A DNA stretch of 64,000 bases. Origin: Microvirga arabica. GTDB lineage: Bacteria > Pseudomonadota > Alphaproteobacteria > Rhizobiales > Beijerinckiaceae. Under the pieces are notes generated by a model. It did not search any database. It saw only the letters and a program-made list of their open reading frames with translations, and had not been told where the DNA came from. Of this stretch, positions 24,873-52,418 are shown one piece after another; position 1 is the stretch's first letter, and each line of letters begins with the position of its first letter. The stretch covers positions 62,001 through 126,000 of the forward strand of contig NZ_JAFBID010000004.1 of NCBI RefSeq assembly GCF_016811235.1, read 5' to 3'. Both the position numbers and the translations under genes were made by a program.

Positions 24873-25223
24873 ACGCCGTCCTCCTCGCAAGCGCGATCAA
24901 CCAGTATAGAACGGGCAAAAAATGCCGAGGGCACAACCCGGGTTCTCTTCTCTGTTCAGCAGCGTACCGAGACTCTTCATCCTGAGCGGTCCCAAGGGCA
25001 GAAGTTGCGAAACGTCTCCTTGTCTACCCCGTTCATAGAAGTCGAAGCAGGGCATTGCCGTGATCTGTGAAGCGCAAGCGAGCGTAGCCAGTCTGTCCTG
25101 ACACTGCGAGTAAGGTGAGGATTACGAACACTTCATCTCGCCGTAAGGACAACTTCACGCGTCTGCCCCCATTTATTCTGGCATCTGGGGCACGTCCCCG
25201 ACGAGCTGATGGAGTATGCAGTA
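24873..25223. promoter_or_regulatory. Divergent upstream region
   Basis: About 350 bases between the starts of the PRC-barrel gene (minus) and the HtrA gene (plus). Promoters for both must lie here, but I could not assign convincing -35/-10 elements or operators. Confidence 0.35.
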
Positions 25224-26765
25224 ATGAGACACTATCTTCTTTCTTCTCCGGGGCCGCATCGCACGCGACGGACCCCGAAGGCAAGATCTGCTCTTCTTGG
25301 AGCCGTTGCACTTGCCGCTCTTGTCACTACCGCTGGAGGGGTTGCGCTTCCTGCCTTCGCTCAGGCGCCGCAGACCATTGTCGCTCCGCAATCGACTGTG
25401 CCCTCATTCGCCGATGTGGTCGAGCGGGTGAAGCCTGCCGTTGTATCAGTCCGGGCGAAAGCCGGCGACGCCAAGCAAGCACAGGTCAGTGGCGACCGGC
25501 AGACCAGCCCCAACTTCAATCTTCCGGACTTCGGCCTCCCCGACGATCATCCCTTCCAGGAGTTCTTTAAACGCTTCCGCGGTGAGGGAGGTCGGGACAG
25601 TGAGGCGCCCCGCTTCGGACGGCCGGGCCCGCGCCAGGGCATCTCCCAGGGATCTGGCTTCTTCATCTCGGCCGATGGCTATCTCGTGACCAACAACCAC
25701 GTGATCGACAAGAGCTCCGAGGTCGAGGTGCTCATGGATGACGGCCGCACCCTCCCGGCCAAGGTCGTCGGTACCGACCCGAAGACCGATCTCGCCCTGC
25801 TCAAGGTCGAGGAAGGCGGACCGTTCAAGTTCGTCGAGCTCGCGCCGGAAGTCCCGCGCGTGGGTGACTGGGTCCTTGCCGTCGGCAATCCCTTCGGCCT
25901 CGGCGGCACTGTGACAGCGGGCATCGTCTCGGCGCGTGCCCGCGACATCGGCGCTGGCCCCTATGACGATTTCCTCCAGATCGACGCGCCGGTGAACCGC
26001 GGCAACTCCGGTGGGCCGACCTTCAACCAGAAGGGTCAGGTGGTCGGCGTGAACACCGCGATTGCCTCGCCGTCCGGCGGCAACGTCGGCATCGCGTTCG
26101 CGATCCCGTCCGAGACCGTTCGCAACGTGGTGACCCAGCTCCGCGAGAAGGGCGCCGTCGAGCGGGGTTACGTTGGAGTTCAGATCCAGCCCGTAACAAA
26201 GGATATTGCAGCGAGCGTTGGGCTCGACAGGAGTGAGGGTGCTATCGTTGCCCGGGTCGAGGATGGCGGACCCGCAGCGAAGGCCGGCATCAAGACGGGC
26301 GACGTCATCATCTCGGTGAACGGCAAACCTGTGGAGGATGCGCGGGACCTGTCGCGGATGATCGCCTCACTGAACGCCGGCTCCACTGCTACCCTGCAGG
26401 TTTGGCGTGATGGCAAACGGCAGGAAATCCCCGTCACGATCGCCAAGATGTCCGGCACCTCCGCGGCTGCGGCGGACCCACAGCAAGGCACCGAAATGGG
26501 CAAGCTCGGGCTGAACCTCGCCCCAGCGGGTAACAACAAGACGGGTGTCGCGGTTGTCGGCGTAGAGCCTGGAAGTCCGGCAGCTGAGAAGGGCTTCAGC
26601 ACTGGCGACGTGATCAAAGAGGTCGCGGGGCAACCGGTACAGACGCCGGCTGATGTGAAGGCTGCACTTGAGGCAAGCCGCAAAGATGGCAAGAAGAGCG
26701 TGTTGTTCCTTGTCGAGGCAAGCGGTGGTACCCGCTTCGTCGCGCTCCAAGTTCCTGCGGCTTAG
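25224..26765 (+). CDS. degP: HtrA/Deg-family periplasmic serine protease
   Basis: A 513-residue Do-type protease. A long N-terminal signal segment (ALLGAVALAALVTTAGGVALPAFAQA) is followed by the trypsin-like domain, with catalytic His in VTNNHVID, Asp in DPKTDLALLKVE and Ser in NRGNSGGPTFNQKGQ. Two PDZ domains follow, with binding loops near RGYVGVQIQP and LGLNLAP. It degrades or refolds misfolded periplasmic proteins under heat and envelope stress. The symbol marks the family; DegQ or MucD would be equal fits. The start at 25224 follows GGAG. A strong hairpin lies just after the stop. Confidence 0.92.
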   Translation: MRHYLLSSPGPHRTRRTPKARSALLGAVALAALVTTAGGVALPAFAQAPQTIVAPQSTVPSFADVVERVKPAVVSVRAKAGDAKQAQVSGDRQTSPNFNLPDFGLPDDHPFQEFFKRFRGEGGRDSEAPRFGRPGPRQGISQGSGFFISADGYLVTNNHVIDKSSEVEVLMDDGRTLPAKVVGTDPKTDLALLKVEEGGPFKFVELAPEVPRVGDWVLAVGNPFGLGGTVTAGIVSARARDIGAGPYDDFLQIDAPVNRGNSGGPTFNQKGQVVGVNTAIASPSGGNVGIAFAIPSETVRNVVTQLREKGAVERGYVGVQIQPVTKDIAASVGLDRSEGAIVARVEDGGPAAKAGIKTGDVIISVNGKPVEDARDLSRMIASLNAGSTATLQVWRDGKRQEIPVTIAKMSGTSAAAADPQQGTEMGKLGLNLAPAGNNKTGVAVVGVEPGSPAAEKGFSTGDVIKEVAGQPVQTPADVKAALEASRKDGKKSVLFLVEASGGTRFVALQVPAA

Positions 26766-26991: not shown

Positions 26992-27528
26992 CTATCGGTC
27001 GCGCTGGATTACGCCGCACGCGATCCGGTCACCAGCCGCCCCTGAGGGCTGACTGCGGTAATCGTCGGCCATAGCATGGATCACGAGAGCGGATCCATCT
27101 TGATCGAATAGGGGCGCTTGGCCATTGAAGCTTACGTTGGGATTGAAAACTTCAGCAAGCAGCTTGCCGTCATCTTCCACGGTCTGGTTCGGCATATCGC
27201 CGGCGTGTGGCCCAGCCTGCTGCCAGTAGCCGTGCTGTGATCCCGTCGGATTGTAGTGGCCGCCCGCGGACTCGAAGCCGGCTTGCCCATCGCAGCGCCC
27301 CACTTCGTGGATATGGAACCCGTGAAGGCCAGATGGAAGATTCGCGGCCTCTGCCCTGATCAGTACGCCGTTAGGAGTCTCGATCAGAGTTGCCGTTCCA
27401 ATAGATTGCCCCTTCTGGTCCATGAAGACAGCCCTTGCACTCAGCGGCGTGGACGATGGCTGCTGAGCCAAAACAGGGCTGACACCTAGGATGAGACTTA
27501 CGTAGACAAGTTTGTTCATGGTCGCCAT
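26992..27528 (-). CDS. sodC: Periplasmic Cu/Zn superoxide dismutase
   Basis: A 178-residue Cu/Zn superoxide dismutase with a signal peptide (MNKLVYVSLILGVSPVLAQ). Copper ligands are visible in LHGFHIHEVGRC, the bridging and zinc His/Asp in SAGGHYNPTGSQHG and HAGDMPNQ, and the last copper His in LVIHAMADD. The disulfide Cys pair (GRCD and IACGV) is present, as is the RSQPSGAAGDRIACG block. It turns periplasmic superoxide into oxygen and peroxide. Starts at ATG 27528 or ATG 27519 are both possible. Its neighbour is the respiratory operon. Confidence 0.92.
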   Translation of the reverse strand: MATMNKLVYVSLILGVSPVLAQQPSSTPLSARAVFMDQKGQSIGTATLIETPNGVLIRAEAANLPSGLHGFHIHEVGRCDGQAGFESAGGHYNPTGSQHGYWQQAGPHAGDMPNQTVEDDGKLLAEVFNPNVSFNGQAPLFDQDGSALVIHAMADDYRSQPSGAAGDRIACGVIQRDR

Positions 27529-27761
27529 CACTTCTAACCTGGACTGGTTTGGTCATAATCTTCGGAAGCGACAATGACTGGATGGCACTCCCGACTGTCT
27601 CCCGATAGTCGAGAGCACAAGGTCACTGATCCGAGGTTTACACGGCAAGTGTAGTCCACGGATCTGTTGCTTCATGAAGCGCCTGCAGGCAGAACCGGCA
27701 GCAACAACGGGCGTTCCGGTGGAGCAACCTGCCTCACCTATCCAGTCAGTACGCTGATGAA

Positions 27762-27794
27762 CCAACGGCAGGCGGCTGCGGATCGTGCCGTTGG
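27762..27794 (-). terminator. Hairpin ending the respiratory operon
   Basis: CCAACGGCA (27762-27770), loop of 15 bases, TGCCGTTGG (27786-27794). On the minus strand it begins 5 bases after the stop of the last operon gene. Short T content follows. Inferred terminator. Confidence 0.45.
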
Positions 27795-27798
27795 GGCT

Positions 27799-28716
27799 TC
27801 AGGAGGATTGGTGCGCCGGAAAACGATACCGTCCTGATGAGATCAGGAGCCGTGCGGCTAAAGCTAGACATGCGAGGAGATAGATGAAGCTAGCCGGCAC
27901 CCACATGATTAAGCCAGCGAGTTGCTGATCAGCAAGGGGATCAAGCCCCCATTGTTCCGGTCCCCGCTGGTACCAGGGATAAAGCAAGGTAGGTGAGAAG
28001 GTGATGAGGGCGCCCAGGAACCCGCCGTAAACAAGCGTCAGGAAGCCTGCTGCAATACCAGCCGGCACGGTAGCGGTGCTCCGCAGGCTTGCAGCGAGGC
28101 TATGCCAGAACAGCATTGCGGTTGCAAAGAAGGTGACGTGCTCGAACGCATGGACGGCTTCATTCCGCAATGCAGCTTCGAAGGGCGCTGGAGCATGCCA
28201 CAGCCACAGTGCGGCACCATGGAGAGCGCAGGCGGGAAGCGGGCGGATCAGGAATGCGGTCCACTCGGCGAAGACACGAACGCCAGAACTTCGTCCCAGG
28301 GCGCGCCGTGTCGTCTTTGGTAGGAACCATGGCAGGGCCCCTCCTGGCAAGCCGGCCAGCAGGAGAGGGGGCGCCACCCCGATGAGCAGGACGTGCTGGA
28401 CCATGTGCGCCGCCAGCAAGGTTCCGCTCAGTGAATCTAGAGGTGAGACCAAGGCTACAATGAGGATTGCCCCTCCACCTGCATAGGACGCCACACGGGC
28501 AATGGAGATGCCGCGACCTAGCCCGGCATGGCGCCAGAGATTCCTGACTCCAACCCCATAGAGCACAAAGGCCAGCGGCAATGAGACCAGGACCCACGGC
28601 TCCGCCGACCAGTGGTGCCATACGTTACTAGGCTCTATCGGCTGCGCGCTTTCATGCGCGAAGGCCGGAATGGAGAGAAAGATCATCAGGACAGCTGATA
28701 CAAGCGGCCTCATCAT
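27799..28716 (-). CDS. ctaG: CtaG-like cytochrome c oxidase assembly factor
   Basis: A 305-residue multi-spanning protein of the caa3_CtaG family: signal-like N-terminus, then about seven helices. Conserved His-rich features include AAHMVQHVLLIGVAPPLLLAG, LWLWHAPAPFEAAL and EHVTFFATAMLFWHS. In Bacillus this family is needed for active caa3 oxidase, likely in copper delivery; it differs from the Cox11-type CtaG of other proteobacteria. It is the last gene of the operon, 4 bases after the small membrane protein gene and downstream of the oxidase genes, as expected for an assembly factor. Confidence 0.88.
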   Translation of the reverse strand: MMRPLVSAVLMIFLSIPAFAHESAQPIEPSNVWHHWSAEPWVLVSLPLAFVLYGVGVRNLWRHAGLGRGISIARVASYAGGGAILIVALVSPLDSLSGTLLAAHMVQHVLLIGVAPPLLLAGLPGGALPWFLPKTTRRALGRSSGVRVFAEWTAFLIRPLPACALHGAALWLWHAPAPFEAALRNEAVHAFEHVTFFATAMLFWHSLAASLRSTATVPAGIAAGFLTLVYGGFLGALITFSPTLLYPWYQRGPEQWGLDPLADQQLAGLIMWVPASFIYLLACLALAARLLISSGRYRFPAHQSS

Positions 28717-28720
28717 CGAT

Positions 28721-29086
28721 TCATCCGCAAGGTGGGATCATGAAAGCGGGCAGACCGTTCCAGGCGACGGCAACGAAGGAGAGAGCAGCGATTGTCATTG
28801 TGGTGTACCGCATGAAGTCGTTAACGGGTTTCCGGTCTCGCGACGCACGGGCTGGTCCCCGCCTCCAGAGCGCGAGAAGGAGAACGACAAGCACGCCGGC
28901 CAGCGCAACGACTGTAGTCCCGACGACCACCAGTGGAACGATGCCAAATCCTAAGTAGCTCTCGCCTGCAAAGTGCCGAGCACAAGCCAGTGAATTGAAG
29001 GCGTAGACGAGACCGAAGTGGGCGCCCCAGATAAGGAGCCCCCCGATCATGAATAGCGATTTTCGGATGAAGTCGGTGTCACCCAT
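28721..29086 (-). CDS. Small membrane protein of the oxidase operon
   Basis: A 121-residue protein with three apparent hydrophobic helices (MIGGLLIWGAHFGLVYAF, VPLVVVGTTVVALAGVLVVLLLALW and MTIAALSFVAVAWNGLPAFM). It lies 5 bases after the oxidase gene and 4 bases before ctaG, so it is translated with both. Similar small proteins accompany caa3-type oxidase operons and may be accessory subunits, but I cannot assign a known name. Confidence 0.7.
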   Translation of the reverse strand: MGDTDFIRKSLFMIGGLLIWGAHFGLVYAFNSLACARHFAGESYLGFGIVPLVVVGTTVVALAGVLVVLLLALWRRGPARASRDRKPVNDFMRYTTMTIAALSFVAVAWNGLPAFMIPPCG

Positions 29087-29091
29087 CGATC

Positions 29092-31674
29092 TTACCCCAG
29101 GAGTCTCGGGAAGGCGTGGACGATGAGAAGGGCAACGAGGCCCTGCGCGACACCGTAGTGCCAGAACAGCTGCGTATTGTCGAAGGTCGACCGTCGCACC
29201 CGATTCAGCCGGCCGGCTAATGAACGGACAACGGTGTAAAGCCCCATGATCGCCAAAACCGCAACGACGAAACCTTGGTAAGAAGCCAGACTGTAGACGA
29301 CTGCACCATAGCCCGACTCGGAGGGGCGCAGACCCGTCTCAAGCTGTCCGAAAACCTCGAGTGCAACACTCCCGATTAGCAAGGGTATAGCTACTAAGAG
29401 GGCGATACGGGTTAACCAAGCGCTCCGCTCGGGCACTTGCGAGAGCCTCCTTCCTGCAAGCCAGACGAGAAGGCTGCTTGCCACAAGAAGCGCCCCCGCA
29501 CCCACGGGCCACCAAATGGAAGGCAGCGCGGCTGCCGACGTCGGCCAGATGCGCGGGTTGACGGTCCAGAGAAAGAGATAGGAAAAGACAATACAGCTGA
29601 AGACCATTCCCGTCACCATCATCAGGATAATCATCGCCCACCAGGAATGGTTCATCGATCCCGTGACATAGGTCGGTAGCCTCAGCCCGCCGCCAATATC
29701 AACGTCACCAACTTCAGCAGGACCTGGATCGGTGTCCCACAGCCACCAGATGACGCAGACGACGGCAAGAATCCCGCAGATGAAGGCAGGAATGTAGAGC
29801 TTGATCGTCAGACCGATGAAAAACGATGCGGTAAAAAAGGCCGCGAAGACCGTGCGCCAGCTCGGTCCCGGGATCTGCAGCACGTATTGTGCCCTCGCAT
29901 CGATGGGACTGGTGACGATTGTCTCGCGCCCGCGTGTCGGTGCCCCCGGAAGGTAATACCGGCCTGCTTCAACATGGTTAGCCAAGCTGGGCTGATCCCA
30001 CAATGGTTCACGACTGGTGATGATGGGGATAGAACGTGTCTGATAGTTGCCACTTGGGAGCCATTCCAACGTACCGGCATTCCAGACGTTCCCCAGATCG
30101 CCTTGATAGGGACGGAAGTTCTTCGCCAAGTCGATGAGAAAGATCAGCACGCCTGCGCCGATCATGTAGGCGCCAAGCGTCGAGATCAGGTTGAACGTGC
30201 CCCACCCCATTTCGGCGAGATAGGTGTAGGTGCGTCTGGGCATGCCCATAAGACCAGTGATGTGCATGGTGAAGAAGGTCACGTTCACACCGATGAAGAT
30301 GAGCCAGAACGCCCATTTCCCGAGGGTCTCCGACAGGGGCCGCTGAGAGGCAGTCGGTGCCCAATAATAGAAGGCGGCGAACATGGGAAACACCATGCCG
30401 CCGATCAGGACATAGTGGAAATGGGCGACGATGAAATAGGTATCGTGAGCCTGCCAGTCGAACGGCACCATCGCGACCATAACGCCTGTCAGCCCGCCGA
30501 GGACGAAGATGAACAGGAACCCGAGGATGAAGTAGGTCGGCGTCTTGTTCTGCAGCTTGCCGGACGCAATCGTCGCGATCCAAGCGAAGACCTGGATTCC
30601 AGTCGGTATCGAGACCGCCATGCTAGCCGCCGAGAAGAAGCTCAAGGAGAGCTGCGGCAGCCCCGTCGTGAACATGTGGTGGACCCAAAGGCCGAAGCTG
30701 AGAAACCCTGTGCCGATCACCGCAAGCACCACCAGGCGGTAACCGGCGAGCGGCGTCTGCGCCATAGTGGGCACGATCATGGAAACCATTCCGGCGGCAG
30801 GAAGGAAGATGACATAGACCTCTGGATGACCGAAGAACCAGAACAGGTGCTGCCATAGCAGAGGATCGCCGCCTTTCTCGGCGATAAAGAACGGCCAGTG
30901 GAAGGCGCGCTCGAGCTCCAGAAGCAACGTGGCCGCTATGATTGCCGGAAACGCGACGATCACCATCAGGGCGAAGACGAGCATCGCCCACGAATAGACC
31001 GGCAGCTTATCGAGGCTTTGGCCCGGGGCTCGGGTTTTTAAGACGCCGACGATGATCTCGATCGCACCCGCAATAGCCGATATCTCGATGAAGCCGATAC
31101 CAAGGAGCCAGAAATCGGCGTTGATGCCTGGCGAGTAGATATAGCTCGTGAGCGGTGGGTACATGAACCAACCGCCATTCGGCGCGAGGCCGAAGAACAG
31201 GCTCGTGAAAAACGCAAGCCCGCCAAAGAAGTAGGCCCAGAAGGCATAGGCCGAGAGCCGCGGGAACGGCAGGTCGCGGGCGGCCTGCATGTTGGGGAGG
31301 AGAAAGACACTTAGAGCCTCGACCATCGGCACGGCGAAAAGAAACATCATGATCGTGCCGTGCATGGTGAAAAGCTGGTTGTACAGCTCGTGCCCAACGA
31401 GCCGGAGCTCCGGCTGTGCCAGCTGGGTCCGCATGATCAGGGCCAAGATGCCGGCTAGAACGAAGAACAGGAACGCCGTGCCCACATACCAGACACCAAC
31501 ATAGTTGTTGTTCACGGCGGAGATAAAGTGGATGCCCTTGGGCTGCTCCCAAACTCGCTTGAGTTCCTCAAGTTCGCCTCTCGGGCGAGGAGCGGGATTG
31601 GGCAGCCGGACCGGTCCGCCTTCCTGCCTGACGCGGGTGTCCGCAATTCCGCCTTGGAAGGTTGCATCGCTCAC
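29092..31674 (-). CDS. coxA: Fused cytochrome c oxidase subunits I and III
   Basis: An 860-residue fusion. Residues 1 to about 600 are subunit I: heme a ligand in QLFTMHGTIMMF, Tyr-linked copper site GHPEVYVIFLPAAGM (with the D-channel Glu of A-type enzymes), CuB histidines in LWVHHMFTTG and heme ligands in HDTYFIVAHFHYVLIGG. After a long soluble link, the C-terminal 230 residues form a subunit III-like bundle (SMNHSWWAMIILMMVTGMVF). It reduces O2 to water and pumps protons in the inner membrane. Its start overlaps the coxB stop by 4 bases. Such I-III fusions are known in caa3-type oxidases. Confidence 0.93.
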   Translation of the reverse strand: MSDATFQGGIADTRVRQEGGPVRLPNPAPRPRGELEELKRVWEQPKGIHFISAVNNNYVGVWYVGTAFLFFVLAGILALIMRTQLAQPELRLVGHELYNQLFTMHGTIMMFLFAVPMVEALSVFLLPNMQAARDLPFPRLSAYAFWAYFFGGLAFFTSLFFGLAPNGGWFMYPPLTSYIYSPGINADFWLLGIGFIEISAIAGAIEIIVGVLKTRAPGQSLDKLPVYSWAMLVFALMVIVAFPAIIAATLLLELERAFHWPFFIAEKGGDPLLWQHLFWFFGHPEVYVIFLPAAGMVSMIVPTMAQTPLAGYRLVVLAVIGTGFLSFGLWVHHMFTTGLPQLSLSFFSAASMAVSIPTGIQVFAWIATIASGKLQNKTPTYFILGFLFIFVLGGLTGVMVAMVPFDWQAHDTYFIVAHFHYVLIGGMVFPMFAAFYYWAPTASQRPLSETLGKWAFWLIFIGVNVTFFTMHITGLMGMPRRTYTYLAEMGWGTFNLISTLGAYMIGAGVLIFLIDLAKNFRPYQGDLGNVWNAGTLEWLPSGNYQTRSIPIITSREPLWDQPSLANHVEAGRYYLPGAPTRGRETIVTSPIDARAQYVLQIPGPSWRTVFAAFFTASFFIGLTIKLYIPAFICGILAVVCVIWWLWDTDPGPAEVGDVDIGGGLRLPTYVTGSMNHSWWAMIILMMVTGMVFSCIVFSYLFLWTVNPRIWPTSAAALPSIWWPVGAGALLVASSLLVWLAGRRLSQVPERSAWLTRIALLVAIPLLIGSVALEVFGQLETGLRPSESGYGAVVYSLASYQGFVVAVLAIMGLYTVVRSLAGRLNRVRRSTFDNTQLFWHYGVAQGLVALLIVHAFPRLLG

Positions 31675-32717
31675 TTGAGGCTCTCCAGATAGGCCGCGAT
31701 GGCACGCAGCTCCTCGCCTTGCAGATTGCCGAACGAAGGCATGAGGTTGTCCGGCTTCAGATGCTGGGACGATGAGACCCAGCCGGCCAATGTCCCGATA
31801 TTGGTGGGATATGTCCCGGCAGCGATTGAGCGGCGCCCACCCACGTACGTCAAATCAGGCCCGACCAGTCCGGCGGCCGACGTGCCCCGAATGGTATGGC
31901 AGGCACCGCAGCCATTTTCCAGGAAGAGCGTTTTGCCCCGTACGAGGAGTGGAATGACAGGTTCCGCAGGAGGGATTGCCTCCCGAGCGTACCAAGCCTC
32001 GAACTCGTCCGGCGGCAGCGCAATCACGTAGAAGGCCATCAAAGCGTGCTGCGCACCGCAATACTCGGCGCACTGTCCCCGATAGATGCCGGGGCGCTCA
32101 GCGGAAAAGCGGGTGACATTCACGCGCCCAGGGATCATGTCGAGCTTGCCGGCAAGACTGGGCACCCAAAAAGAGTGGATTACATCCTGGGTCTTGAGAA
32201 CGAACTCGATGGGCCGACCCGTCGGCACCTTGATCTCATTTGCGCTGACGAGCCGAACCGCTCCCTCGGCGTCCACGTAATGTACGCGCCACCACCAGCG
32301 CTCACCGATCACCTCTACGCGCAGAACAGCCGGCTCGCCCGTCACAAGCACTCTGGATATGGATAGCCCCCAGGTGAGCAGAGCTGTCAATGTCACGACA
32401 GGAAAGATGATGCCGAGGCCGATGATAAACTTTCGACCCGTCATCCAGCCTCGCATCCTGGCCGGAGCAAGGATGGCAAGTGTGGCCAGCCCCATAACCA
32501 ACAGGAAAATCAAGGCCGCGCCGATGATCATCACCCAACTCAAGGTCTCGATGATCGCGGCGTGAGGCCCGTATGTCACCATCGTGGATTGGATCCACAT
32601 CAGCGCTCTATCAACGATGCCAGCAGGCTGGGCCGAGGCTCCGGTCGTGCCGAGAACGCCAGCGAACAAGTATGAGAGGACAGCGGTTAGGAATCGATGG
32701 TGTCTCATATCCGTCAC
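31671..32717 (-). CDS. coxB: Cytochrome c oxidase subunit II with fused cytochrome c
   Basis: A 348-residue protein: signal peptide, two membrane helices (about residues 50-115), a cupredoxin CuA domain and a C-terminal heme c domain. The CuA ligands are visible in VIHSFWVPSLAGKLDM and in YRGQCAEYCGAQHALM. Heme c attaches at GCGACHTIRG, with a likely Met ligand in NLMPSFG. The fused heme marks a caa3-type enzyme that can take electrons directly from other cytochromes c. The gene overlaps both neighbours by 4 bases. Confidence 0.93.
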   Translation of the reverse strand: MTDMRHHRFLTAVLSYLFAGVLGTTGASAQPAGIVDRALMWIQSTMVTYGPHAAIIETLSWVMIIGAALIFLLVMGLATLAILAPARMRGWMTGRKFIIGLGIIFPVVTLTALLTWGLSISRVLVTGEPAVLRVEVIGERWWWRVHYVDAEGAVRLVSANEIKVPTGRPIEFVLKTQDVIHSFWVPSLAGKLDMIPGRVNVTRFSAERPGIYRGQCAEYCGAQHALMAFYVIALPPDEFEAWYAREAIPPAEPVIPLLVRGKTLFLENGCGACHTIRGTSAAGLVGPDLTYVGGRRSIAAGTYPTNIGTLAGWVSSSQHLKPDNLMPSFGNLQGEELRAIAAYLESLK

Positions 32718-33109
32718 CGCAACGTATAGAGGTAGGCAGCCACGTGGCGGGCTTCCTCATCGGACAGGCCGAGATCCGGCATTCCCGTGTGCGGGGCAAT
32801 GGACGGCGCGTCCTGCACCCATCGCACAAGCAAAGACGGTTCGTTGGGAACGACGCCGCCGATGAATTGGCGCCTGCCGAAACCTGTCAGCGGCGGCCCT
32901 ACGATTCCATGTGCGCCTTGGACGCCAGGAATGACGTGACAGACACCGCATTCATAGGCTGCGATGATGCGGCGCCCCCTCTCGGGCTCGCCGCCAGCTA
33001 CACGCGTGATCCTCAACTCATCGAGTGGCTGGCTGGCCTTCTGAGCGGAACCGTCATCATTGCAGCCGGCGAGCATCATGAAGAGCGCGGCCGACACTAT
33101 CCTGCGCAT
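32714..33109 (-). CDS. Monoheme cytochrome c lipoprotein
   Basis: A 131-residue protein. The start at 33109 gives a lipoprotein signal (MRRIVSAALFMMLAGC) with the Cys at the lipobox end. One heme site (YECGVCHVIPG) and a likely Met ligand (GMPDLGL) are visible, in a small class I cytochrome fold ending HVAAYLYTLR. Membrane anchored in the periplasm, it would carry electrons to the oxidase. It overlaps the coxB start by 4 bases. The frame extends upstream to 33211 but without signal character. Confidence 0.85.
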   Translation of the reverse strand: MRRIVSAALFMMLAGCNDDGSAQKASQPLDELRITRVAGGEPERGRRIIAAYECGVCHVIPGVQGAHGIVGPPLTGFGRRQFIGGVVPNEPSLLVRWVQDAPSIAPHTGMPDLGLSDEEARHVAAYLYTLR

Positions 33110-33152
33110 TTGACCCGGGCCGTTCCGCTGCCATAGGAGCATCCATCTGCTC

Positions 33153-34160
33153 CTACGGCTGGTTGCGGGAGGGGGCCCCCGTGGTGGTCGTGGTGCCACG
33201 TGGCCTTTCATCGACAGGGGGCGAGAGATAGGGCGGCAAAGCGTTGGGAGGGAGCGGACGCCGCGGGAGACCCAGAGGCGGTTCTATTGCCGGAGCCGGA
33301 GGCCCGGCGGGCTCCATGCCTGGAACCACGACGGAGCCACGTCCCGGTTCGGGCCTTTGCACAGCACCGACATCAGTCGGATTTTGCCCGGGCGATTGCC
33401 TGGGCTGCACTGCCGGAGATCGTCCCCCTTCGGGAGCATAGCGGGCGTCCTGAGGGATCACCTCCCTCGGTCGTACGGAGGCATAGTAGAGCGAAACCGC
33501 TCGAATCTGCTCGTCCGTCATGGCCTTGGCGATCATCTCCATAATGTTCATGGGGTCGCCGTCCCGCCGGCCTTGCTTCCAGAGCATCAATTGATGCTGC
33601 AGATAGGGAGCGAACTGGCCACCCAGAAACGGATAGATAGGGGCTTGGCCGATGCCGCTCGGGCCATGACACCCATCGCAGGCGGGCACACCCTGTGACG
33701 GTATGCCAATGGCCGCAATGGCACCGCCGATCTGCCGGACCTGGACGTCCGCACGCGGCTCGGCCGGGTATGGCGCGTCCTTGATGCTGGCGTAATAGGC
33801 TGCGACATCCTCCATCTGCTGCGGCGTGAGCGTCCGGGCGATCGGCGCCATGATGTCACTTGGGCGAAGGCCCGATGCATAATCCCGCAAGGACTTATAG
33901 AGGTACCAGCCGGCTTGGTCGGTCAGGCGCGGAAAGGCTCCGCTCGAGTTGCCTGCCCCGTCGACTCCGTGGCATTGGACACACCCGATTCTCTGTTCCG
34001 CAAACATGCCCCCGATGATGATAAACCTGCCACGATTGGGATCGGCTTCGTGGTTGCGCTCGCGCTGATCGCTCAGGCCGAGCAGGGATTGTGAGAGCGC
34101 GGCGGAGGTAATGACGGCGCCCGCGATCACGGCCGCACCGATTTGGACTGCGCGGATCAT
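33153..34160 (-). CDS. Diheme cytochrome c (c4-like) with proline-rich tail
   Basis: A 335-residue exported protein starting at ATG 34160 (MIRAVQIGAAVIAGAVIT...). Two c-type heme motifs, CVQCHGVDG and CDGCHGPSG, each sit in a cytochrome domain ending in a Tyr-rich helix (DVAAYYASIKD, AVSLYYASVRP). The C-terminal 90 residues are rich in Pro, Gly and Arg and look disordered. The gene overlaps the flavoprotein gene by 4 bases, which suggests it is the direct electron acceptor of that dehydrogenase. Closest known group: cytochrome c4 and dehydrogenase-linked diheme cytochromes. Confidence 0.88.
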   Translation of the reverse strand: MIRAVQIGAAVIAGAVITSAALSQSLLGLSDQRERNHEADPNRGRFIIIGGMFAEQRIGCVQCHGVDGAGNSSGAFPRLTDQAGWYLYKSLRDYASGLRPSDIMAPIARTLTPQQMEDVAAYYASIKDAPYPAEPRADVQVRQIGGAIAAIGIPSQGVPACDGCHGPSGIGQAPIYPFLGGQFAPYLQHQLMLWKQGRRDGDPMNIMEMIAKAMTDEQIRAVSLYYASVRPREVIPQDARYAPEGGRSPAVQPRQSPGQNPTDVGAVQRPEPGRGSVVVPGMEPAGPPAPAIEPPLGLPRRPLPPNALPPYLSPPVDERPRGTTTTTGAPSRNQP

Positions 34161-35926
34161 GGCTGCACCAGAGGGCCAGGGTTTTTCAGGTACTGCTTGA
34201 TCATGGCATCCGCCGCCCAGTAGGCGAGGGCGCCAACAGTGTCCGTGGGGTTGTAGCCCGCGTTCTGTGGAAAGACGGACGAGCCCATGACCCACAGGTT
34301 ATGCAAATCCCAAGACTGCAAGTAGCGGTTCACGACGCTCGTCTTCGGATCGGTGCCCATGATGGCGCCGCCTGTGTTGTGCGTCGTCTGGTAGGGTACG
34401 ATACTATAGTGATCGTCCAGCCATCCTACACTCATCTGTTTGCCGCCCATCGCTTGAGCAATACCGGCCATCTTCTCGGTGATGTAACGAGCCATGAGAC
34501 GATCATTATAAGGGAAGTCATAGGTGAGCATCCCGAGCGGCTGGCCGAACGCATCCGTATAAGTCGGATCAACGCCGAGGTAGTTGTTCGGATGAGGGAT
34601 TGAGGATCCATGGAACCCGAGCGAGACCGTGCTGTTGTAGTGCTGCCGAACCGCCTGCTTCCACCCAAGCCCCCACCGGGGCGTCCCTTCGGGCACCGGA
34701 TGGTGGTAGATGGGTCGGCCTGTCGTCTGATAGGCCGCAATGTAACCGCCGCCGATAAAGCCCAAGCCGGAGTGATCGAAGCTTCCGTTGTTGAAGTCGT
34801 CGATGGCGGTTCCGAGGGCTCCAGCGGCCATGAAGGGGTTGATGCGCTTTTCACCGTCATAGAAAACCTCGGCGCCGGTCATGGTCTGATAGGTGTAGTT
34901 GCGCCCGACCGTTCCTGTCCGGGTCTCCGGATCATACGGCTGACCAATGCGTGATTGCAGCATCAGGATGGGATTGTGGTGCGCGAAGGCGCAAAGCACG
35001 ACCATGCTTGCCGGCTGGAAGACCTCTCGACCCTGTGCGTCCACATAGGTGACCCCACTGGCAACCTTCGCTTGCCTGTCCCATTCCACCCGAAGGACGT
35101 AGGAGTGGGTGCGCATCTCAAAATTTTTGTTGGCCAGAGCGAAAGGCAGGATGCACACCTGAGGGCTTGCCTTTGCGAAGTGTTCACAGCCGAAAGGATC
35201 GCAAAAGCCGCAGTACATACAGGGCTTGATTTCCGCCCCAAAAGGGTTCGTGTAGTGGCGCGTCACGTTCGCTGATGGTACGGGAAATGGACGGTATCCC
35301 AGTTGCGCCGCAGCTTGCCCGAAGAGAAAGCCGGAATGGGACTGTTTCATCGGCGGATTCGGGTAAGGCTCGCTGCGTGGCCCCTCGAAGGGGTTTCCGC
35401 CAACCTGAATCTGCCCCTTGATGTTGCCTGGCGCTCCGCTGATCCCCATCACCTTTTCGAAGAAGGTGTAATAAGGTTCAAGCTCTTCGTACGTGATGCC
35501 CCAATCTTGGATGGTGACATCGTCATCCAGGAAACCGCGCCCGTAGCGTTGCTCCGCCCAGCTTTTCAGGACGAACCACTCGGGCTGAAACCGCCAAGTC
35601 TGGCCGTTCCAGTGCGTCGCTCCGCCCCCGACCCCCTCGCCCGGCAGGAATGATCCAAGTTGGCGCATTGGCAGAGCCTGCTGGCCAACGAAGTTGCGAA
35701 AGGTAATGGTCTGGACGCTAACATCCTGAGCATAGGCGTGACGCACGTCGTACTTCAGTTCGTCATGCATCGTCGGTGATTGAAAATCCGGCACGGTCTG
35801 GCGCATTCCACCGCGTTCGAGCGCAACGACTGTCTGACCGGCCTCAGCAAGCTCCTTCCCCAGAATGGCAGCAGTCAGGCCACCTCCGACGAGCGCGACG
35901 TCCACAGGCTTCATGCGCACCGTCAT
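34157..35926 (-). CDS. GMC-family FAD dehydrogenase, catalytic subunit
   Basis: A 589-residue flavoprotein. The FAD dinucleotide fold is at the start (VDVALVGGGLTAAILGKELAEAG) with no signal peptide. GMC features follow: GVGGGATHWNGQTWRF, the catalytic His in TTHNTGGAIMG, and AGYNPTDTVGALAYWAADAM. A cysteine cluster, CMYCGFCDPFGCEHF plus a later Cys, lies near residue 230 and may bind an Fe-S centre. Members oxidise alcohols or sugars, such as gluconate or sorbitol. It is probably co-exported with the Tat-signal partner encoded just upstream. Start ATG 35926 behind AGGAG. Confidence 0.87.
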   Translation of the reverse strand: MTVRMKPVDVALVGGGLTAAILGKELAEAGQTVVALERGGMRQTVPDFQSPTMHDELKYDVRHAYAQDVSVQTITFRNFVGQQALPMRQLGSFLPGEGVGGGATHWNGQTWRFQPEWFVLKSWAEQRYGRGFLDDDVTIQDWGITYEELEPYYTFFEKVMGISGAPGNIKGQIQVGGNPFEGPRSEPYPNPPMKQSHSGFLFGQAAAQLGYRPFPVPSANVTRHYTNPFGAEIKPCMYCGFCDPFGCEHFAKASPQVCILPFALANKNFEMRTHSYVLRVEWDRQAKVASGVTYVDAQGREVFQPASMVVLCAFAHHNPILMLQSRIGQPYDPETRTGTVGRNYTYQTMTGAEVFYDGEKRINPFMAAGALGTAIDDFNNGSFDHSGLGFIGGGYIAAYQTTGRPIYHHPVPEGTPRWGLGWKQAVRQHYNSTVSLGFHGSSIPHPNNYLGVDPTYTDAFGQPLGMLTYDFPYNDRLMARYITEKMAGIAQAMGGKQMSVGWLDDHYSIVPYQTTHNTGGAIMGTDPKTSVVNRYLQSWDLHNLWVMGSSVFPQNAGYNPTDTVGALAYWAADAMIKQYLKNPGPLVQP

Positions 35927-35935
35927 GTTGTACTC

Positions 35936-36733
35936 CTATTGCCTCTGAGCGTCATGGGTGTGGCCGTCGAGGTAAGCCTGTCGGGCTCCGGTGTCACCAA
36001 TGCTGATTGGTGGGCGTGTGTATGGAAGATTGTAGAGTTCGACCAAGTCGATGAACTGCGCGTAGGCGCCAGGAAATCCGACCATCCGCCAGCCCACCAT
36101 ATCCCGGTTTCCACCATAAACCGGGTCACCGAAGAAGCCTTCGATGGTGTTAGCGAGCAGGGTCTCGAAGAAAACAGGTGCTGGGAGAGAAGGAAGCTCA
36201 ATGGCCCCGCTTTCAAGCGAGGAAAGCACCTCGTCCATCACGGGTGCCCCGAGATCCCAGAACTCGCGTCCGCTATAATTGGAAGTGACATGGGCGCGAG
36301 TTTCCGCAATCCCTATCCTGTAGAGTTGGGCTGGAGTGTAGCGCAGCTGGTAGCCTTGCTGGGGAGGGGCGTCAGGGACCCACGGACCTTTCAGGTACAT
36401 CCGCGCTCCGGCACCGTACGCGGCAGCGAGCTGGCGATCGATGAAGTTGAGAACGCCCGCCCAAGCAGCTCCCGGCCATTCGGAATCCGAGGGGATGAGG
36501 CGTTCGACAGCAGCGTCGACGAACCGAGCTTCTTCGTCGTTGAAGAAGAAGAGCATACCGCGCTCGGCCGGCAAGTCCGCCCGAGGCGGTGGAGAGGACA
36601 GAGCATTCTGCCTGCCAACCTGCGCAACCTGAACAGGATGCTCCTCGGCGGCCGCATGATCCGGAACGGTAACGGCCACACTGGCAACTCCGGCAACTTT
36701 GAGGAGATCACGACGTGAGAATTTCTCAGTCAC
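35936..36733 (-). CDS. Gluconate 2-dehydrogenase subunit 3 family protein, Tat-exported
   Basis: A 265-residue protein. It begins GTG at 36733 behind AAGGAA; the frame is open upstream to 37066 but only from here is there a Tat signal (MTEKFSRRDLLKVAGVASVAV). The body matches the gluconate 2-dehydrogenase subunit 3 type: FNDEEARFVDAAVERLIPSD, GVLNFIDRQLAAAYGAG, GFFGDPVYGGNRDMVGWRM. In known complexes this subunit carries the FAD subunit across the membrane by the Tat route. It is 9 bases upstream of the flavoprotein gene, consistent with that. Confidence 0.87.
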   Translation of the reverse strand: MTEKFSRRDLLKVAGVASVAVTVPDHAAAEEHPVQVAQVGRQNALSSPPPRADLPAERGMLFFFNDEEARFVDAAVERLIPSDSEWPGAAWAGVLNFIDRQLAAAYGAGARMYLKGPWVPDAPPQQGYQLRYTPAQLYRIGIAETRAHVTSNYSGREFWDLGAPVMDEVLSSLESGAIELPSLPAPVFFETLLANTIEGFFGDPVYGGNRDMVGWRMVGFPGAYAQFIDLVELYNLPYTRPPISIGDTGARQAYLDGHTHDAQRQ

Positions 36734-36749
36734 TGTCTTTTCCTTGTGT

Positions 36750-37091
36750 TCAGTCTTCGAGTGAGACCCAAAGACACGCCTGGTAAACGGCAGGTGTGCT
36801 TCGGTAGGGTTCACACAGCTCAGGCCGCGGCAGAGGGGGCACCCTGATCGGTCCCGGCGCACTCTCTGTGACGTCTTTTGGACCGCTGTAGCCTGTTGTT
36901 GATCCGCTGGTCGTTCCTGCGCCCACCTGAGCCGTCTGAGCCTTATTGACACTTCCCTGGACAGGCGACGAACTGCCTTGTTCGGAACGGTCACTGCTCC
37001 TATTCGAGTTGCCTTGCGCAAGCACCGGCATGTGACTGAAGCCCATAATAGCAAAGCCGGCGACAATGAGTGGGCGAAAGGTCAGGCGCAT
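36750..37091 (-). CDS. Small exported protein of the dehydrogenase operon
   Basis: A 113-residue protein with a signal peptide (MRLTFRPLIVAGFAIMGFSHMPVLAQ), then a Ser/Gly/Thr/Gln-rich stretch and a short C-terminal part with two Cys (RPELCEPYRSTPAVYQACL). It starts only 2 bases after the stop of the diheme cytochrome gene and ends 16 bases before the Tat subunit. I do not recognise it. Position suggests an accessory part of the dehydrogenase. Confidence 0.7.
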   Translation of the reverse strand: MRLTFRPLIVAGFAIMGFSHMPVLAQGNSNRSSDRSEQGSSSPVQGSVNKAQTAQVGAGTTSGSTTGYSGPKDVTESAPGPIRVPPLPRPELCEPYRSTPAVYQACLWVSLED

Positions 37092-37093
37092 CT

Positions 37094-37915
37094 TTACCTC
37101 GCCGAACTTGGACTGGGTGTCGGGGGCAGGGGAGCCGTCGATGCTTGATGTTCAGCCTTCTCAGGGGTGACAGTTCGCGGGCGGATTGCTGCATAGTATT
37201 GAGAGACAGCGTGAATCTCGTCATCCGTCAAACGCTTGGCAATGTTTTCCATGACGCCGAAGCCGTCTCCCTTGCGCTGTCCGGTTTTCCAAGCCTGCAT
37301 CTGGCCCTCCAGGTACCTCGCGTACTGGCCCGCTAAATAGGGGTAGGTCGGCGGTAGACCGACACCATCCGGGCCGTGACAGTTGATGCATCCTTGAACG
37401 CCGCGTGTCGCACTTCCGACTGCTGCAAGCGCGGCACCGTGCTGCAGGATTTGAGGATCCACACGATCCACAGGTGGATAATCGGCCGCCTTCTGCGCAG
37501 CGTAATAGGCAGAGACGTCGCGCATCTGCTGGTCATTCAGCGCCTTGGCGATGGGTGTCATTACCGCGTTTTGGCGCACACCTGACGCGTAGTCCTGCAG
37601 GGAGTCGAAGAGATACTTGTATGTTTGATCCGTCAGTCGGGGGAACACAGCTGCCTTGTCACCTTTGCCATCCATTCCATGGCACTGGAAGCATGCTCCC
37701 GCCTGCGGACTTATCGCGGGCGACCCGGGACCTGCATCTGGGCCGGGTGGAACGGCATAGACTCCAACGACGACGGCGCGCCCTCTCTCGACATCGGCTC
37801 TGCCGATGTCGTACGCGGCGGCTTCCTCCATGCCACTCTGCGCCTCGAGCTCTGAGAAGGCTGAGGCACCGGCCATGAACACCAAAGCCGCGATTAGCAG
37901 ATTTTGGGCGGACAC
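37094..37915 (-). CDS. Diheme cytochrome c (c4-like), first gene of the operon
   Basis: A 273-residue exported protein starting GTG at 37915 behind AGGGGAAG; the signal peptide is SAQNLLIAALVFMAGASAFS. Two heme c motifs, CFQCHGMDG and CINCHGPDG, are each followed by the domain-ending Tyr helix (DVSAYYAAQKA, AVSQYYAAIRP). It is a close relative of the protein at 33153-34160 but without the long proline tail. It is first in the operon; the promoter should lie between 37916 and the plus-strand DedA gene. Confidence 0.88.
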   Translation of the reverse strand: MSAQNLLIAALVFMAGASAFSELEAQSGMEEAAAYDIGRADVERGRAVVVGVYAVPPGPDAGPGSPAISPQAGACFQCHGMDGKGDKAAVFPRLTDQTYKYLFDSLQDYASGVRQNAVMTPIAKALNDQQMRDVSAYYAAQKAADYPPVDRVDPQILQHGAALAAVGSATRGVQGCINCHGPDGVGLPPTYPYLAGQYARYLEGQMQAWKTGQRKGDGFGVMENIAKRLTDDEIHAVSQYYAAIRPRTVTPEKAEHQASTAPLPPTPSPSSAR

Positions 37916-38125
37916 TCTCTTCCCCTCGGGACGTTCGTTGGGGTGCAACGGTAGGCTGAGGCGCCCGTTCCTGATCTGCAATGTTCAGGTTGATCCTTTT
38001 AGTACGGTGGCGGACAGACCTTTGTTCAACGGTTCAAAACCAAGAGCGGCCCGCGCAGTTCAATGAGACACTACGCTAAGGCGGAGCGCTACCCGGAGCC
38101 GAAGGTAGCCCTACCGGAAGATGCT

Positions 38126-38728
38126 ATGTTCGAGTGGATTACAACCTTCATCGAAAGGACAGGGTACATTGGCATCGCGCTGCTGATGTTGGCAGAGAAC
38201 CTGTTCCCGCCCATACCGTCTGAGGTGATTATGCCGCTCGCTGGTTTCACGGCGGCCCGCGGGGAGCTCCAGATTATGCTCGCCGTGCTGGCCGGCGTCA
38301 TCGGCTCGGTCATCGGCACCTCCTTCTGGTATCTCCTCGGACGGTGGATCGGAATGCATCGTATGAAGTCCTTTGCGGCCCGCCATGGACGATGGCTCAC
38401 TTTGACGCCGCAGGATCTGGACAGTGCCGAAGCGTTCTTCTCCCGCCACTGTGGGAAGGCAGTCTTCTTGGGACGTTTGGTCCCCGCGATACGGACCTTG
38501 ATCTCAGTTCCCGCTGGTATGGTGGAGATGAGTTTCGGCCGCTTCCTGTTGTACTCGACGCTGGGCACCGTTCTCTGGACAACCCTCCTGGCCGGAGCAG
38601 GTTACGTGCTGGAGTCCCAATATCGTGTGGTGGCCGAATGGCTCGATCCTGTCACGAACGCGATCCTGGCCATTGCTGTGCTGTGGTATATCTACCGGGT
38701 AGCCACCTTCGGCTCAAAGGCCAGCTAA
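38126..38728 (+). CDS. DedA-family membrane protein
   Basis: A 200-residue inner-membrane protein. DedA/SNARE-associated features are visible: ENLFPPIPSEVIMPLAGF near the N-terminus, GSVIGTSFWYLLGRWIG, and the Arg/Pro block FLGRLVPAIRTLISVPAGMVEM. DedA proteins recycle or flip lipid carriers and support membrane homeostasis and envelope-stress resistance. The start at 38126 follows GGAAG at 38116-38120; the frame extends upstream to 38063 without hydrophobic character. It is divergent from the dehydrogenase operon. Confidence 0.9.
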   Translation: MFEWITTFIERTGYIGIALLMLAENLFPPIPSEVIMPLAGFTAARGELQIMLAVLAGVIGSVIGTSFWYLLGRWIGMHRMKSFAARHGRWLTLTPQDLDSAEAFFSRHCGKAVFLGRLVPAIRTLISVPAGMVEMSFGRFLLYSTLGTVLWTTLLAGAGYVLESQYRVVAEWLDPVTNAILAIAVLWYIYRVATFGSKAS

Positions 38729-50796: not shown

Positions 50797-52401
50797 CTAC
50801 TCTAGCTCCCGAATACTTGCACGGACTACGTCAGCGATCAGCAATGACAGCGCTGCAATCGTGAGTGTCGGATTAACTGATGCGATAGATGGAAAGGTGC
50901 TACTGCCTGCTATGAAGAGGTTTGGATGATCGTGAGAGCGGCAATTATGATCGACCACCGAGCTCCGAGGGTCACCTCCCATGATCGTCGTTCCCACGAG
51001 ATGGTTGTTTCGGACCCAATCCTCGTCGAACGTGATTTCTGTTGCGCCTAAGATATCGGCGATCCGCTTGTAATCGTTGCGCGTTTCTTCCGCACTCCGC
51101 CGGACGTACTCATCGATCGAATATCGGATCACCGGGCGTGGGATCCCAATCGGGTCCATCAGCGTCTCGCTCGGAACGATGCGGTTGCTCGGGTCAGGTA
51201 GCTGCTCGTGGAAGCTGTCCACGCGTAGCCGCCTGATGGATATGTCTCGGATCCTATTGTCAAGTCGGCTTCCAAGCAGCCCCTCATCCAGCGCGTTCTG
51301 CGTGATATCAAGTGTGTCCACTCTGTTGGCGAAGTGATACTTCCTGGCTGCGTAATGGCGCCTGAATGCACCATCCCGGAGGCTCACCACTGAGGTGATC
51401 TCCTGGGGTCCACGGCCGGGGTATACTGGCTCGCGTATAACCATATTGGCCCCGACGCCAGGATGATCCATCAGGTTGCGTCCCACCATATCGGACGAGT
51501 TGCCAACACCCGCGGGCGTCCTTTCCGACTTGGAGATGAGCATGAGCTTGGGCGTTTCAATTCCGTTGCACGCCAGGATAAATACGCGTCCGCGTATTGT
51601 ATGAGTCGCTTGTAGGGGATCCTTATACTGGATCGCCCGAACTCGCCGCTCAGGACCGACATCTATGAAATTGGCGACTGCGTTCTCGATGAGGCGCGCT
51701 CCGGCCTCTTCGGCCAGACGGACGTGGAGATCGCCGCTGTACTGAGCTCCTATCGGACAGATGGGCATGCAATTGTTATTCCCGCAGCAGGGCGGCCGTC
51801 CGCGGAATGGTTTTGTGTACCGGGCCACAGGTTCCGTGACCGTTGTAAGCCCAGCCGGACTCAATTTTCGGACCAGATACTGGTCCATGGTTGACAGTGG
51901 TATGGGAGGGAGCGGAAAGGCTGAACTCCGGGGCGGATCAAGCGCGCGCCCCTGGCCAGCAACGCCCATCTCGCGCTCCGCGCGACCGTAGTAGGGCTCC
52001 AGGAAATCATAATCGAACGGCCAGTCCCTTCCAACGCCATAAAGCGTTCGAAGCTTGAAGTCGCTCGGCAAAAGCCGCCAGGCCGCCGCTGCCCAGTGCC
52101 AAGTTGTGCCTCCGACGGCGCGGATGTACTGGTTATTATAGGCCACTGGACCTGCCTGTATCAGGTAAGCGCCCCAATCATCAGGCGTCGGATGTGGGGC
52201 CCAGTAGTGGGGCGGGTAGGGTGCCATGAAGTGCTTCTCAGGCGCAGCCCTGAACCGGTCCACAAGAACGTCGCGGTTCAAGCGTGGACCTGCTTCAAGG
52301 ATGAGGACGCTTAGGCCGGCCCGGGCAAGCTCATACGCAACGAGACTTCCGGCGACCCCAGATCCTACCACCACGACGTCGGCGTCAAGATCGCTGGCCA
52401 T
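50797..52401 (-). CDS. GMC-family FAD dehydrogenase with Fe-S-type Cys motif
   Basis: A 534-residue catalytic subunit. The start ATG at 52401 follows GTGGAGG. FAD fold: DADVVVVGSGVAGSLVAYEL. GMC features: AVGGTTWHWAAAAWRLLPSDF and the catalytic pair in NNHLVGTTIMGGDPRSS and SVNPTLTIAAL. Near residue 210, PPCCGNNNCMPICPIGAQYS has the C-C-x4-C-x3-C spacing of the 3Fe-4S site known from Burkholderia cepacia FAD-glucose dehydrogenase. It should oxidise a sugar or polyol and pass electrons through the cluster to the diheme cytochrome. It has no signal peptide; export would be with the Tat partner. Confidence 0.9.
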   Translation of the reverse strand: MASDLDADVVVVGSGVAGSLVAYELARAGLSVLILEAGPRLNRDVLVDRFRAAPEKHFMAPYPPHYWAPHPTPDDWGAYLIQAGPVAYNNQYIRAVGGTTWHWAAAAWRLLPSDFKLRTLYGVGRDWPFDYDFLEPYYGRAEREMGVAGQGRALDPPRSSAFPLPPIPLSTMDQYLVRKLSPAGLTTVTEPVARYTKPFRGRPPCCGNNNCMPICPIGAQYSGDLHVRLAEEAGARLIENAVANFIDVGPERRVRAIQYKDPLQATHTIRGRVFILACNGIETPKLMLISKSERTPAGVGNSSDMVGRNLMDHPGVGANMVIREPVYPGRGPQEITSVVSLRDGAFRRHYAARKYHFANRVDTLDITQNALDEGLLGSRLDNRIRDISIRRLRVDSFHEQLPDPSNRIVPSETLMDPIGIPRPVIRYSIDEYVRRSAEETRNDYKRIADILGATEITFDEDWVRNNHLVGTTIMGGDPRSSVVDHNCRSHDHPNLFIAGSSTFPSIASVNPTLTIAALSLLIADVVRASIRELE

Positions 52402-52418
52402 CTGACGGACCTCCACGC

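Follow-up and report, generated by a model that had tools for sequence, protein, structure and literature searches.

A run of ten genes in Microvirga arabica raises two linked questions: do a dehydrogenase, several c-type cytochromes and a terminal oxidase, encoded one after the other, form a respiratory chain of their own, and what kind of oxidase stands at its end? The genes occupy positions 37915..27799, on the minus strand, of the stretch of 64,000 nucleotides that was analysed, here called the window (G000:C191:62001-126000, in an assembly of 6.67 Mb and 246 contigs that is rated 3.06% contaminated). An original prediction, made from the sequence alone, had joined them into one substrate-to-oxygen chain. 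We put a probability of about 0.6 on the reading that the operon is one dedicated aerobic chain, from substrate to O2, that ends in a caa3 oxidase with no lysine in its K channel and with a rebuilt D pathway. This channel signature, unseen by the original prediction, is the most interesting feature of the locus.

The operon and its oxidase

The genes, and two features that go with them, are listed below in the order of transcription, with the evidence in brackets.

37094..37915, minus strand: exported diheme cytochrome c, c4-like, 273 amino acids, GTG start (two CxxCH motifs, Pfam, cytochrome c4 in PDB)
36750..37091, minus strand: small exported protein (conserved stretches in relatives)
35936..36733, minus strand: Gluconate_2-dh3 small subunit with an RR signal like that of twin-arginine translocation (Tat) (Pfam, 97 bits; RRDLLK)
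34157..35926, minus strand: dehydrogenase of the GMC type, with flavin adenine dinucleotide (FAD) (Pfam GMC_oxred N and C; sequence and fold comparison)
35186..35221, minus strand: C236-x2-C239-x2-C242-x4-C247 of that dehydrogenase, putative iron-sulfur (Fe-S) cluster (alignment of 16 sequences)
33153..34160, minus strand: exported diheme cytochrome c, c4-like, with a proline-rich tail (two CxxCH motifs, Pfam)
32714..33142, minus strand: lipoprotein monoheme cytochrome c with an LAGC lipobox (CxxCH, Pfam)
31671..32717, minus strand: CoxB, CuA motif from residue 216 and heme c motif CGACH from residue 270 (Pfam COX2, motifs)
29092..31674, minus strand: fused CoxA-CoxC, 860 amino acids, of a caa3 subfamily without K-channel lysine (Pfam COX1, fold, alignment)
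28721..29086, minus strand: small membrane protein beside the oxidase, subunit IV-like by place only (position)
27799..28716, minus strand: Caa3_CtaG copper-assembly protein (Pfam, 185 bits)
27762..27794, minus strand: weak hairpin 3' of the last gene, without a T-run (folding against shuffles)

A check of open reading frames confirms the ten genes, their coordinates and the three 4-base overlaps, at 34157/34160, 32714/32717 and 31671/31674. The remaining six gaps, with the preferred start codons, measure 2, 16, 9, 10, 5 and 4 bases; the range of 2 to 43 bases first given is right at its lower end, while the gap of 43 bases fits a later start, at 33109, of the lipoprotein cytochrome. Pfam finds Cytochrom_C in four proteins, together with Gluconate_2-dh3, GMC_oxred N and C, COX2, COX1 and Caa3_CtaG, which bears out the identities proposed for the named members. 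The CxxCH motifs, 2+2+1+1 = 6, are spread over four proteins: motifs for the six c-type hemes of the original prediction are all there, and its “five cytochrome proteins” are five only if CoxA is counted.

CoxB carries both CuA and a heme c, the combination that marks subunit II of a caa3 oxidase, and the tabulated haem and CuB histidines and the cross-link tyrosine are kept in the fused oxidases. COX3 is undetected in the C-terminal 289 amino acids of CoxA, both by Pfam and by phmmer against PDB. However, the AlphaFold2 model of the protein (mean predicted local distance difference test, pLDDT, 81; predicted template modelling score, pTM, 0.87) has as its first match polypeptide I+III of the Thermus caa3 oxidase, over 820 columns and with TM-scores of 0.81/0.89. 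This predicted fold supports a subunit III fused to subunit I, as the original prediction had it: despite the missing sequence match, the idea that CoxC is a mis-call is rejected, and the CoxA-CoxC fusion stands. The label “caa3-type” is thus right for CoxB and for the fused I+III; the proton-channel residues differ from those by which A-type enzymes are defined.

Proton-channel residues

The positions in the fused oxidase on which the argument turns, all on the minus strand and located by alignment, are the following.

30592..30594, minus strand: Q361, in the place of the K-channel lysine, which is K362 in R. sphaeroides
31057..31059, minus strand: E206, at the position of the D-channel residue N207
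31084..31086, minus strand: E197, an additional Glu, invariant, nine residues N-terminal to E206
31318..31320, minus strand: E119, an additional Glu, invariant, four residues N-terminal to the position of N121
31252..31254, minus strand: S141, at the position of the D-channel residue N139

Reference residues are numbered as in R. sphaeroides. Seven of them, N121, D132, N139, N207, E286, T359 and K362, are tabulated in PMC12901375 (excerpt). A-type enzymes are defined by the presence of both channels, with a lysine in the K channel, and the A1 criteria name an Asp, three Asn, a Ser and a Glu for the D channel, and a Lys, a Thr, a Ser and a Tyr for the K channel (PMC3084760, excerpt).

The window oxidase reads PTGIQVF, with Q where five solved A-type enzymes have Lys, and the same Gln is found in 80/80 fused CoxA-CoxC proteins readable at the site (68 + 12). 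These proteins are 42-100% identical to that of the window; all samples are of Pseudomonadota, and they include classes besides Alphaproteobacteria. In every one of the 80, N207 is replaced by Glu and N121 by a hydrophobic residue, and the N139 position holds Ser, Thr, Gly or Ala. The three glutamates E119, E197 and E206 are invariant in 68/68, present in the 12 others, and lacking in five K-bearing reference oxidases. E286 is retained in 78 of the 80 (Asp in two), D132 is Asp (Glu in four), and Y288 is kept. Seen against the A1 sets, the D channel keeps its Asp and its Glu, with N121, N139, S142 and N207 replaced, and the K channel keeps its Tyr and mostly its Thr/Ser, with Gln in the place of Lys.

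The second subunit changes as well. At the mouth of the K channel, an acidic residue (D or E) is found in 0/81 CoxB-like open reading frames of other loci, versus E in 4/4 references, and the window CoxB likewise has none. Among the 81, 76 are gap-free at the mouth segment; the CuA motif is present in 74 and a CxxCH in 61, some of the frames being truncated where the locus ends and some being without heme c. With a lysine lost in subunit I and a glutamate lost in subunit II, the loss is coordinated over two subunits.

Kept out of the 80 are 11 unfused proteins, five of a W286 group, the fragments L203/L204, and L196/L197, two contig-split halves of one gene that agree with the fused signature where readable. 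The unfused subunits I (about 650 amino acids; L002, L173-L175, L189-L195) have Gln at the K lysine and keep N139 in 11/11, with N207 changed to Glu in 9/11 and D132 to Asn in 9/11. In the five subunits I of the W286 group (L198-L202), Trp replaces E286 and the K lysine is Ala or Thr, the D-channel Asn and Asp being kept; a piece of subunit I from Tranquillimonas (L081:3314-4645) resembles them, with Trp at E286 and Ser at the K lysine.

Taken together, the channel changes, the kept catalytic ligands and the new glutamates would most simply mean that the enzyme works through a rebuilt D pathway, by which all chemical protons probably enter, perhaps with altered proton pumping. A wider proposal, which we offer tentatively, is that of a widespread subfamily of the A family in which the K channel was discarded in both subunits and the D channel rebuilt with glutamates: a one-channel enzyme, its pumping changed or absent, hard-wired at this locus to a periplasmic GMC dehydrogenase of sugar type. 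The B and C families of haem-copper oxidases are K-only, and the one-channel reading is their mirror image.

The alternative of an ordinary A-type pump has to be weighed here. The Gln at the K site could lie within a still-working water channel, formed by Gln361, Thr/Ser and water; the D-channel changes could compensate each other, or pumping could follow another route. The retention of E286, of Y288 and, mostly, of D132 speaks for it, and the effects of mutants made in one background may not carry over to another. Changes of N207 are reported to decouple the R. sphaeroides oxidase. In laboratory A-type enzymes, K-to-M stops heme a3 reduction, and the N139D, T and S mutants are active but do not pump (PMC12901375, excerpt); the same excerpt itself favours the H pathway as the route of pumped protons, which would leave pumping possible despite the D-channel changes. 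However, the coordinated loss in two subunits and the new invariant Glu residues argue against an ordinary pump, as do those mutants, and we hold it to be unlikely. Laboratory mutants are blocked or decoupled, yet comparable natural changes are combined in a large family: they provide a natural test of a matter long debated, whether an A-type oxidase needs a K channel, one of the two proton entries held essential in textbooks, and of the role of the D-channel asparagines in pumping. In the open-access literature searched, no A-type enzyme was described as lacking the K-channel lysine, although older subscription papers may hold such a report.

The dehydrogenase and its pairing with the oxidase

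By sequence and by fold, the solved proteins nearest to the GMC subunit are two catalytic subunits, the large one of fructose dehydrogenase and the alpha one of FAD-glucose dehydrogenase, followed by pyranose oxidases; its substrate is likely sugar-like. The structure model is middling, with a mean pLDDT of 71 that falls below 50 around the cysteines. Pfam and alignment identify both the FAD motif and a His/Asn pair; this pair and three cysteines align with residues of fructose dehydrogenase that we take to be, respectively, its active-site pair and the ligands of its Fe-S cluster. The extra cysteine, C239, has no counterpart there, and all four (C236, C239, C242 and C247) are invariant in 16/16 aligned sequences, which makes the stretch a putative Fe-S site. 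For the flavoprotein itself no signal peptide is evident, and the small subunit that precedes it has a twin-arginine start, visible as RRDLLK, although the Tat model scores 20.6 bits against a cut-off of 22.7: the small subunit probably exports the GMC subunit by hitch-hiking. Instead of a triheme cytochrome c subunit, the operon has two c4-like proteins with two CxxCH each, and in the absence of the former the diheme proteins must be the electron acceptors.

The closest named relatives of the GMC subunit are in Microvirga, with 98% identity in M. arvi and M. soli. A second GMC set lies in the window at 50797-53686, on the minus strand: its GMC protein is 28% identical to that of the operon and, with an FAD-SLDH small subunit (PF12318) and a diheme-type cytochrome c, the set is like fructose/sorbitol dehydrogenase. 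Plasmid pTHTHE1601 of Thermus thermophilus (L147) carries a GMC protein 57% identical to that of the operon together with a small subunit, and the transposases near them suggest transfer between phyla.

From gene content and order, conservation, heme and metal motifs and channel residues, we infer the class of substrate, the direction of electron flow, the proton route and any change in pumping. In the dedicated chain that we favour, the GMC flavoprotein would be taken to the periplasm by its small subunit, which is putatively Tat-bearing, and would oxidise a sugar-like substrate there. Electrons would pass from FAD to the Fe-S cluster, to the diheme c4-like cytochromes, either free or as a loose subunit, and to the lipoprotein cytochrome c, then to heme c and CuA of CoxB, heme a, heme a3/CuB and O2. 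The electrons would still be supplied on the outer side and the protons presumably taken up on the inner side, so that part of the energy would be conserved through charge separation alone. The chain may also bypass quinone and the bc1 complex, and may assemble into a supercomplex. It would be compact, probably sugar-fed and self-contained, and could be moved and measured as a unit.

The coupling of dehydrogenase and oxidase, which the original prediction had read from one locus, gains comparative support, in part from a conserved gene order. A scan of genome contigs found Microvirga loci in six named species and one further strain, and all ten genes recur in 7/7 of them. They also recur at another place in the assembly itself, a second locus (G000:C177) where CtaG is matched only as two pieces; the GMC proteins of these loci are 82-98% identical. 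In two genomes, G092 and G230, nine of the ten have a match, the exception being CtaG; in G158, the same record as a Bauldia metagenome-assembled genome (L082), eight do. The pairing extends to Rhodobacterales, where the oxidases are of other lineages. Plasmid pDSHI02 of Dinoroseobacter shibae keeps the order of eight genes (small subunit, GMC, c, c, coxB, ctaD, hypothetical, CtaG) with a GMC protein 54% identical, and a Sulfitobacter plasmid has both halves, divergently arranged.

The tree of GMC proteins has one clade of 16 rows (98/99), 15/16 of which have an adjoining oxidase. The oxidases of this clade belong to several lineages: that of G092 and those of Dinoroseobacter and G311 branch elsewhere, in a quick tree supported by the Shimodaira-Hasegawa-like approximate likelihood ratio test (SH-aLRT) only. 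Tranquillimonas, in the context of the same clade, uses yet another kind; it is excluded from the oxidase tree, its in-frame piece of subunit I having only 444 amino acids. The pairing was thus kept, or remade, while the oxidase changed, and this speaks for function over drift.

Co-occurrence was also counted. In a sample of 297 genomes from the order, a close GMC relative is present in 28, a fused CoxA-CoxC in 41 and both in 14; the co-occurrence that the original prediction had proposed as a check is found in 14/28 GMC genomes versus 27/269 others, an odds ratio of 9.0 that is uncorrected for kinship. In the same sample, 8/31 of the close GMC genes have a fused CoxA-CoxC at a distance of less than 5 kb.

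Several observations weigh against a dedicated chain. Outside the clade, the GMC tree has 41 close relatives; eight of these rows (L119-L126), with only 1.5 kb of flank, are left out, and of the 33 that can be judged, 26 have no oxidase within 8 kb, three are near an oxidase that bears the K lysine and is of a different type, and four near a fused one. Taken as a whole, the family of dehydrogenases can therefore do without this oxidase. Not counted as this system are L043 and L072, “cox_adjacent” because a canonical aa3 with the K lysine lies about 6 kb off, and L041, unlabelled, with an A2-like K-bearing oxidase 2.2 kb off. Inside the clade, Aquabacter spiritensis (L080:10001-13587) has GMC and CoxB and no CoxA-CoxC within the flanks covered; its CoxB has CuA and heme c, and may act as a bare electron carrier. 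The second locus of the assembly groups closely with M. makkahensis and M. pakistanensis in both the GMC and the oxidase trees and, given the 3.06% contamination, could be foreign. Finally, the genome keeps a bc1-type cytochrome b and further oxidases, so that the wiring may not be exclusive.

These points give room to a second alternative, in which the genes share regulation and no dedicated wiring: the GMC protein would feed the general pool of cytochrome c or quinone, and the oxidase would serve the whole chain, bc1 included. Besides the bc1 complex and the 26 oxidase-free relatives, it can call on a third fused K-less caa3 in the same assembly, on contig C11, which is 69% identical and adjoins genes of the alternative complex III (ACIII) type, so that electrons of quinone origin are possible. 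However, the GMC protein is paired with several lineages of oxidase, and the operon supplies its own cytochromes and its own CtaG; we regard a shared pool as quite unlikely. The ACIII-type genes beside the C11 oxidase (L052, G000:C11:50000-69900) encode a multiheme cytochrome c, a protein like molybdenum-cofactor (MoCo) and 4Fe-4S enzymes, NrfD and a monoheme cytochrome c: the donor appears to vary from one related oxidase to another. A general rule, by which other dehydrogenases would stand beside the GMC-free relatives of the oxidase, was considered and rejected, the 10 neighbouring open reading frames being mixed: one molybdopterin enzyme (the copy of G211), one of ACIII type (the C11 copy), three without a match, and the others regulators or unrelated.

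That the operon serves to remove O2 or to protect against stress, a periplasmic sugar oxidation burning O2 rather than yielding energy, is improbable: SodC (26992-27531, minus strand) and a trypsin-PDZ, DegP-like protease (25209-26765, plus strand) do lie downstream, and pumping may be weak, but the operon is complete without these two neighbours.

On its other side the operon is flanked by a VTT/DedA protein (38063-38728, plus strand). The two small proteins matched no family in the family searches; the exported one has two stretches, VGAGTxxxxTxGxSG and PxLPxxxLC, that are conserved in 10 sequences. The terminal hairpin of the original prediction exists, with a stem of 9 bp and a loop of 15 bases, but it is only modestly more stable than its shuffled versions, with a z-score of -1.66 and 16/200 shuffles folding equally well or better, and it is not among the sites listed by a terminator scan. 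A promoter scan gave one site, intragenic, versus 3.2 expected, and is thus uninformative; in Rfam, nothing between positions 27000 and 39000 reached the gathering threshold.

Comparison with known systems

The open-access literature searched yielded no operon that joins GMC and oxidase genes, though most subscription journals lie outside it and specialists may know of one. Known three-subunit complexes have a small subunit that acts as a Tat hitch-hiker, an Fe-S cluster that takes the electrons of FAD, and a triheme acceptor (PMC9727119, excerpt). The operon shares with the complexes of fructose dehydrogenase and FAD-glucose dehydrogenase (PDB 8jej, 7w2j, 8grj) a GMC catalytic subunit, a small subunit, here putatively Tat-bearing, and a heme c acceptor. 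Unlike them, it has diheme c4-like proteins for the triheme subunit, a fourth invariant cysteine and a small subunit of the Gluconate_2-dh3 family, and the whole set is joined to an oxidase.

The caa3 oxidase of Thermus keeps the K-channel lysine. With this enzyme of T. thermophilus (2yev), the operon has in common the fused I+III and a CoxB with CuA and heme c. They differ at both K-channel sites: the operon oxidase has Gln at the position of the lysine, and its CoxB is without an acid where the Thermus CoxB has LEVVW. Another described arrangement joins ACIII to an oxidase; there the donor would be quinol via ACIII, whereas here it would be a periplasmic dehydrogenase.

Among alphaproteobacterial COX operons, types a and a-II have the COX1-3 fusion, and type a-II often includes a pyrroloquinoline quinone (PQQ)-dehydrogenase (PMC4013037, excerpt), so that operons of dehydrogenase and oxidase are already a known kind. 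Neither “GMC” nor “proton” occurs in the main text of that paper, and the operon of M. arabica differs from type a-II in that its dehydrogenase is a GMC flavoprotein.

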